This document shows, in pieces, positions 10,383 to 24,630 of a DNA stretch of 64,000 nt; within the stretch, counting starts at the first letter, position 1; each line of letters begins with the position of its first letter. Origin of the DNA: Archaeoglobaceae archaeon (GTDB lineage Archaea > Halobacteriota > Archaeoglobi > Archaeoglobales > Archaeoglobaceae); assembly GCA_027028145.1 (NCBI GenBank), contig JALVJV010000021.1, positions 62,001-126,000 of the forward strand, written 5' to 3'. The notes beneath the pieces are model-generated. The model worked only from the letters and a program-made list of their open reading frames with translations. It ran no database searches and had not been told where the DNA came from. The position numbers were made by a program, and so were the translations under genes.

Positions 10383-11318
10383 ATGCTTAGATACATAGCG
10401 AGGAGACTTCTTCAGGTAATTCCGACGCTTTTCGGTGTTTCCCTTCTTTCGTTTTCCCTACTCTACCTCTTCCCCGGAGATCCGGCGGAGTTTTTGGCTG
10501 AGGTGAGATACAAGATAGAACCAACTCCGGAAATCGTTGAAAGAATAAGGAAGCAGATGGGATTCGATAAACCGTTTCTCGTCCAATATCTCCACTGGCT
10601 TTCGAACGTTTTGAGGGGTAACTTCGGAACGTCTTGGACGGAAGGAAAGCCGGTTATGGATCTGATAATGCAGAGACTCCCGGCTTCAGCCGAGCTATTC
10701 TTCGCAACGTTTGCGGTATCGATATCTTTTGCCTTATTTCTCGGAATAATTTCGGCCATATACAAAGATAGGGCTGTGGATCACATCTGCAGAATATTTT
10801 CCCTCTTGGGCATAAGCATTCCGAGCTTCTGGCTCGGCTTAATTCTAATCTGGATATTTTCGGTAAAACTTCACCTTCTGCCTGCTTTCGGTTACGGCGG
10901 AATTGAGCACATGATTCTGCCCGTTTTAACTTGGAGCTTTTCATTCATGGCTATAAAGACGAGGTTCGTTAGAAGCTGTCTGCTCGAAGTTCTGTCTCAG
11001 GATTACATAGTTACGGCGAGAGCTAAGGGGTTATCGGAAAGGCTCGTTGTTCTGAGACATGCACTTAGAAACGCTCTGATTCCGATAATAACATACTTCT
11101 CCCTTTCAATTCACCATCTGATCATAGGCTCGATCATGGTTGAGGTGGTTTTCTCATGGCCCGGTTTGGGATCTCTGCTTGTGGAATCCGTTTTTGAAAG
11201 GGATTTTCCCGTCGTTCAGGCGTTGGTTTTCTTGTCCGGAGTTCTCTTCGTATTCGTCAATCTGATCGTCGACATACTCTACGCCTTCATAGATCCGAGG
11301 ATTAGATACGGTGACTGA
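10383..11318 (+). CDS. nikB: ABC transporter permease, NikB/DppB family
   Basis: 311 residues with six hydrophobic segments. The N-terminus MLRYIARRLLQVIPTLFGVS and the cytoplasmic coupling loop DYIVTARAKGLSERLVVLRH (EAA motif, about residues 202-221) are diagnostic of the first permease of family 5 transporters. It starts directly after the binding-protein stop and ends inside the start region of the second permease, so the operon is tightly coupled. The nickel label comes from context; peptide transport is possible. Confidence 0.85.
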   Translation: MLRYIARRLLQVIPTLFGVSLLSFSLLYLFPGDPAEFLAEVRYKIEPTPEIVERIRKQMGFDKPFLVQYLHWLSNVLRGNFGTSWTEGKPVMDLIMQRLPASAELFFATFAVSISFALFLGIISAIYKDRAVDHICRIFSLLGISIPSFWLGLILIWIFSVKLHLLPAFGYGGIEHMILPVLTWSFSFMAIKTRFVRSCLLEVLSQDYIVTARAKGLSERLVVLRHALRNALIPIITYFSLSIHHLIIGSIMVEVVFSWPGLGSLLVESVFERDFPVVQALVFLSGVLFVFVNLIVDILYAFIDPRIRYGD

Positions 11319-11319
11319 G

Positions 11320-12135
11320 ATGAACAGGCTTTGCGTTACGGGATTGGGAATAATACTGCTGATGGTCATCTTAGGTCTGTTGGCACCTTTGATAGCTGGG
11401 AATCCATACAAAACGGATTTGAAGGATAGACTCGAGCCTCCGAGCCTTAAGCATCCCTTTGGCACGGATCAGCTTGGAAGAGATCTGTTTTCGAGGGTTT
11501 TATGGGGCGCGAGGACTTCTTTGTTCGTAGCCCTCACGATATCCCTCATCTCAATGTCTCTGGGATGCATCATCGGAGCGGTAAGCGGATACTTCGGAGG
11601 GATAATCGATGATGTAATTGGAAGGATTATCGACGTGTTTTTAGCCATTCCTGAGCTTGTATTCAACATAGCGTTGGTCGGGATATTCTGCGTAGCTTAC
11701 GGCGTTTCAACTTGGAACGTAATTTTGGCTGTGGTTATAACGAACTGGGTTAGCTACGCGAGGATTACGAGGGGGATCGTGCTATCTCTGAAGGAAAGGG
11801 AATTCGTTCTCTGTGCCAAAGCTATCGGAGCGGGCGAATGGTATATACTACTTAGGCACGTAATTCCCAACTCGATAGGGCCCATAGTCGTTTTGGCAAC
11901 CCTGAACATGGGTAACGTCATCATGACGATCGCAAGCTTGGGATTCTTGGGACTGGGAATTCAGCCTCCGACACCGGAATGGGGGCAGATGATAAACGCG
12001 GGCAAGGATTACATAACCACGGCACCTTGGCTAACCTTTTTTCCGGGTTTGTTCATAGCCCTATCGGTTCTCGGCTTCAACCTGCTTGGAGAGGGCTTGA
12101 GGGACGTTTTGGAAAGGAAGAGTTTCATCGAATGA
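11320..12135 (+). CDS. nikC: ABC transporter permease, NikC/DppC family
   Basis: 271 residues from ATG 11320, or 274 from the GTG at 11311 that overlaps the nikB stop. HPFGTDQLGRDLFSRVLWGA is the DppC/NikC signature, followed by five to six membrane segments and the EAA loop EFVLCAKAIGAGEWYILLRH. It is the last gene of the operon; no NikD/NikE ATPases follow, and the next gene is on the other strand. ATPases from elsewhere in the genome must energise it. Confidence 0.85.
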   Translation: MNRLCVTGLGIILLMVILGLLAPLIAGNPYKTDLKDRLEPPSLKHPFGTDQLGRDLFSRVLWGARTSLFVALTISLISMSLGCIIGAVSGYFGGIIDDVIGRIIDVFLAIPELVFNIALVGIFCVAYGVSTWNVILAVVITNWVSYARITRGIVLSLKEREFVLCAKAIGAGEWYILLRHVIPNSIGPIVVLATLNMGNVIMTIASLGFLGLGIQPPTPEWGQMINAGKDYITTAPWLTFFPGLFIALSVLGFNLLGEGLRDVLERKSFIE

Positions 12136-12194
12136 ATTCAGGCGCGGGCTACTTCATCATCGCATGCGCTCAGAATTGGATTCAATCATCATTA
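12136..12194 (-). ncRNA. C/D box sRNA with two 16S rRNA-directed guides
   Basis: On the minus strand: C box ATGATGA (12186-12192), guide TTGAATCCAATT (12174-12185), D' box CTGA (12170-12173), C' box ATGATGA (12154-12160), guide AGTAGCCCGCGC (12142-12153), D box CTGA (12138-12141). All four boxes are perfect and both guides are exactly 12 nt. The D' guide is complementary over 12 bases to AAUUGGAUUCAA of archaeal 16S rRNA (helix 31, E. coli 958-969). The D guide matches CGCGGGCUAC near E. coli 1228-1237 over 10 bases. Both target sequences are from memory. The gene lies downstream of lysS and abuts the nikC stop. Confidence 0.92.
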
Positions 12195-12273
12195 CATGAA
12201 ACTGAAGCCGAAGTGTAAAAGACCTTTCGCTTGTGCGAGCTTAATAAAGAAAGAGTAAATTCAACACCGCCGA

Positions 12274-17714: not shown

Positions 17715-17768
17715 TGTCAGACAGCCCCTAATTCATCACGATTCAGAGCTCAGGGGGCTTCATCATCC
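17715..17768 (-). ncRNA. C/D box sRNA, two guides
   Basis: Minus strand: C box ATGATGA (17760-17766), guide AGCCCCCTGAGCT of 13 nt (17747-17759), D' box CTGA (17743-17746), 3-nt spacer, C' box GTGATGA (17733-17739), guide ATTAGGGGCTGT (17721-17732), D box CTGA (17717-17720). All boxes match consensus. Predicted targets are AGCUCAGGGGGCU and ACAGCCCCUAAU, each with a C as the methylated residue by the D-plus-5 rule; I could not place them in an rRNA or tRNA from memory. Both flanking genes run the other way, so it must have its own promoter. Confidence 0.85.
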
Positions 17769-24577: not shown

Positions 24578-24630
24578 CGATGATGAGTTTCGGTCGCTCT
24601 GATTCGTGATGAAATTTCCTGCGGCTGAGG
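24578..24630 (+). ncRNA. C/D box sRNA, two 12-nt guides
   Basis: Plus strand: C box ATGATGA (24580-24586), guide GTTTCGGTCGCT (24587-24598), D' box CTGA (24599-24602), 3-nt spacer TTC, C' box GTGATGA (24606-24612), guide AATTTCCTGCGG (24613-24624), D box CTGA (24625-24628). Predicted targets are AGCGACCGAAAC and CCGCAGGAAAUU, each with an A as the methylated residue. I cannot place them from memory. A TATA box TTTAATATAT (24544-24553) lies about 27 bases before the expected 5' end, so it is an independent gene between aEF1B and the helicase. Confidence 0.93.

Follow-up and report, generated by a model that had tools for sequence, protein, structure and literature searches.

Among the described C/D sRNAs, Pyrococcus sR46 (RF01130) carries a D′ guide for which the N+5 rule gives G962. 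Nanoarchaeum equitans sR15 has been proposed to act as a folding chaperone that bridges helix 30 (Dennis et al. 2015, PMC4644070), and a changed guide order in Methanopyrus kandleri sR39, sR119 and sR88 has been read as a circular rearrangement of the sRNA gene (PMC4644070). Circular sRNAs are known (PMC9014305), and archaeal C/D genes commonly overlap the ends of ORFs or are packed close to them (PMC7994747). The locus described here lies on the minus strand of the window, i.e. the whole stretch of 64,000 nucleotides from an Archaeoglobaceae archaeon that was analysed. Its D′ half is nearly identical to that of sR46 (Rfam consensus UGAUGA-AUGAAUCCAAUG-CUGA) and is predicted to select the same site, but the D guides of the two sRNAs are unrelated. 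With N. equitans sR15 it shares what is apparently the same target nucleotide of the D guide (alignment position G1217/1218 of sR15, by an estimated mapping approximately E. coli 1231; PMC4644070). The D′ guide of sR15, in contrast, is directed to G930 in the opposite strand of this helix (approximately E. coli 946-947, mapping likewise estimated), whereas the D′ target here is 962 in helix 31. The M. kandleri sRNAs are paralogues within one genome and one of their guides is decayed, whereas the swap of guide order observed here is between species and both guides still match their targets. Neither the 962/1231 guide pair nor its order swaps were found in the literature searched, though this exact pair may have been predicted elsewhere. 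The locus is a further example of a well-known kind of archaeal C/D sRNA, and it is of wider interest solely because its guides have been retained jointly across relocation and swap.

On the minus strand, positions 12192-12138 read ATGATGA-TTGAATCCAATT-CTGA-GCGCATGCG-ATGATGA-AGTAGCCCGCGC-CTGA, which gives a core of 55 nt from box C to box D. Box C (ATGATGA, 12186-12192), box D′ (CTGA, 12170-12173), box C′ (ATGATGA, 12154-12160) and box D (CTGA, 12138-12141) all agree with the consensus. The D′ guide (12174-12185) and the D guide (12142-12153) are both 12 nt long and lie directly upstream of box D′ and box D, and a spacer (12161-12169) separates box D′ from box C′. The preliminary description had reported four perfect boxes and two exact 12-nt guides; the boxes and the guide lengths stand, but pairing along the entire 12 bases is seen for the D′ guide alone. 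Box D is situated 2 nt past the stop codon of a convergent gene for an OppC/NikC-type ABC transporter permease (11311-12135, plus strand), while a class I lysyl-tRNA synthetase gene (TIGR00467; 12274-13770, minus strand) lies upstream of the sRNA on the same strand. A possible BRE/TATA promoter element, GCGAAAGGTCTTTTACA (12214-12230, minus strand), was recognised by eye approximately 25 nt upstream of box C, and this stretch is near-identical in genome G001. The core is also flanked by an inverted repeat, AGTTTCAT/ATGAAACT; as a conserved terminal stem this repeat was rejected, since it is broken in G001 and absent from G003. With high confidence, the locus can be regarded as encoding a canonical C/D box sRNA of the archaeal double-guide type, approximately 55-62 nt long, that would direct methylation at E. 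coli positions 962 and 1231. The gene is presumably transcribed, and the two box pairs of the RNA would recruit L7Ae, Nop5 and fibrillarin into an RNP. The genes for fibrillarin and Nop5 adjoin one another in the same genome (G000:C19:102162-103572).

The organism's own 16S gene (G000:C3:446-1955) was used as target in direct tests of the guides. Alignment of both guides with this gene, the check that the preliminary description had proposed, revealed complementarity at both of the predicted places. The sequence matched by the D′ guide, AATTGGATTCAA, occurs once in the 16S (own positions 935-946) and forms 12 of 12 pairs, and the sequence matched by the D guide, ACGCGGGCTACA (own positions 1208-1217), forms 10 contiguous pairs, with both end bases of the guide unpaired. 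For both guides the complementarity (12 bp and 10 bp, respectively) spans the N+5 position, and the N+5 rule gives G939 (E. coli 962) for the D′ guide and G1211 (E. coli 1231) for the D guide. The E. coli numbers were obtained by alignment to the E. coli 16S reference and were corrected for one base absent from that reference. Both the 12-base pairing in helix 31 at position 962 and the 10-base pairing near 1231, which the preliminary description had proposed, were borne out. The equivalent of site 962 is found four bases ahead of 966; we take this site to be in helix 31 and site 1231 to be on the 3′ strand of helix 30. Pairing of the D′ guide with helix 31 would lead to 2′-O-methylation of G939, and pairing of the D guide with helix 30 (3′ strand) to that of G1211, which would add two predicted 2′-O-methyl sites beside the ribosomal P site for Archaeoglobaceae. 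The sites are approximately 270 nt apart in the 16S sequence; since they lie in adjoining helices, the RNP probably also holds the strands of helices 30 and 31 while the 16S rRNA folds, i.e. it may have a chaperone role. Both target sequences are near-universal among archaea. In the 23S of two relatives (L266 and L267), used because the assembly lacks the organism's own 23S, no match better than those in the 16S was found.

The D guide also pairs, more weakly, over 9 bp with own 16S positions 65-73 in the helix 6 region, and if this stretch rather than 1208-1217 were its true target, the second methylation would fall on G69. Although these 9 bp (GCGCGGGCT) extend right up to box D and the pairing at 1231 leaves guide position 1 unpaired, we consider this target improbable. 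Guide position 1 varies among the homologues (C, A or T), and where it is T, in G002, G030 and G010, it forms a pair with the 1231 target; in addition, the own 65-73 sequence is not conserved, e.g. in G030 (L217) and G014 (L216), whereas the 1231 target is.

Both guides were present together in one sRNA in 10 of 55 Archaeoglobaceae genomes. These belong to four genera, five being of the organism's own genus (the genome of the window included) and five of three other genera, and none of the family's genomes was observed to hold either guide in this form in the absence of its partner. In every tabulated form of the homologues, position N+5 is a C opposite the target G. The paired retention of both guides is the strongest evidence for a function. 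A looser search of the family yielded no convincing further homologues. A genome-wide pattern scan was flooded by chance matches in AT-rich bacteria, and few of its archaeal matches were C/D sRNA-like; the phylum matches L285 and L286, which are without C/D architecture, were rejected as homologues. A 962 guide was also observed in a C/D sRNA of the archaeal MAGs L086, L098 and L101, which are labelled Thermococci and Methanomicrobia, but there its partner (A/GACTTATGAGCG) is another one; a target of this partner was not found.

The homologues mostly lie at unrelated loci. The permease side is common to G000, G001 and G003, and these three agree throughout the sRNA core, though the upstream flank in G003 is unrelated; protein comparison with G000, G002, G014 and G025 as queries revealed no other shared neighbour genes. 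Since the neighbour genes are otherwise unmatched among the loci checked, the sRNA gene appears to relocate or to be re-created. The patchy distribution of the homologues and the weak terminal stem would agree with a decayed or unexpressed C/D sRNA, in which case methylation at the two sites would be absent or would rely on other genes. This is very unlikely, however, as all boxes are intact, the core has remained identical next to an unrelated flank, and the guides stay together through relocation and order swap. The locus represents a genuine C/D sRNA gene, and a function is very likely. Its initial assignment as a double-guide C/D sRNA aimed at two 16S sites is supported by the pairing with the organism's own 16S, by the fibrillarin and Nop5 genes and by the homologues in nine other genomes.

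The order of the guides is reversed in G002, a member of the same genus, and in G015 and G025, where the 1231 guide precedes the 962 guide. In these swapped forms 3-4 nt separate D′ and C′, while the unswapped forms possess a D′-C′ spacer of 8-9 nt with a GC...GC(G) pattern, represented in the window by GCGCATGCG. In G002, corresponding bases (GGCT upstream of box C, GCCTTA downstream of box D) lie at the ends of the RNA. On the Nop5 tree, G002 was placed between G004 and G000/G001, all of one genus, with modest support (0.84-0.87), and G015 and G025 formed a sister clade; these placements imply at least two changes of order. Because the GC...GC(G) bases of the unswapped spacer are found at the RNA ends of G002, we infer that the swaps may have arisen by circular permutation of a common ancestor, as these bases suggest, and not by chance convergence. 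Tentatively, retention of the 962/1231 pair as a functional unit might reflect the need for a single RNP to hold helices 30 and 31 together during 16S folding, the gene being repeatedly re-created in circularly permuted form, perhaps via circular sRNA. In that case, the old terminal stem could persist as the long GC...GC D′-C′ spacer, or the reverse. One guide pair that occurs at several unrelated genomic places and in both orders offers a natural test of the joint selection of paired guides, which is a prediction of the folding-chaperone idea.

For a random 12-mer, the probability of reaching 12 bp of continuous pairing across the guide position was approximately 1e-4, and that for a 10-bp run approximately 0.004; the product of these two single-guide estimates gives a joint guide-match probability of approximately 4e-7. 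Although the C/D boxes are only short motifs and TGA is also provided by stop codons, an intergenic sequence that resembles a C/D sRNA by chance is hardly conceivable, given this joint probability and the failure of the box descriptor to find any C-D′-C′-D structure in 200 Markov-shuffled windows, and it is already contradicted by the nine other genomes that hold homologues. When the whole window was searched against Rfam at gathering thresholds, a tRNA was the only match, and C/D families became visible only at permissive thresholds. The full-length sRNA then matched sR46 (E 5e-6) and sR9 (E 9e-4), both under the gathering score; the sR46 match (RF01130) reached 31.8 bits against a gathering threshold of 50, and only its D′ half corresponds.

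Further C/D sRNA-like genes were noticed. A second strict C/D sRNA with the guides GTTTCGGTCGCT and AATTTCCTGCGG is located at positions 24580-24628 of the window (plus strand), just upstream of a helicase-like ORF; each of its guides matches the 23S of a relative (L266) in 10 of 12 bases, at sites approximately 38 nt apart. A third one, with the guides AGCCCCCTGAGCT and ATTAGGGGCTGT, lies between two opposite-strand ORFs at positions 17717-17766 (minus strand), and its guides match a relative's 23S at sites separated by approximately 33 nt. More such genes were observed near the homologues of G002 (L187, 1999-2142) and G004 (L005, 1562-1618), which suggests that C/D sRNA genes form small clusters there.
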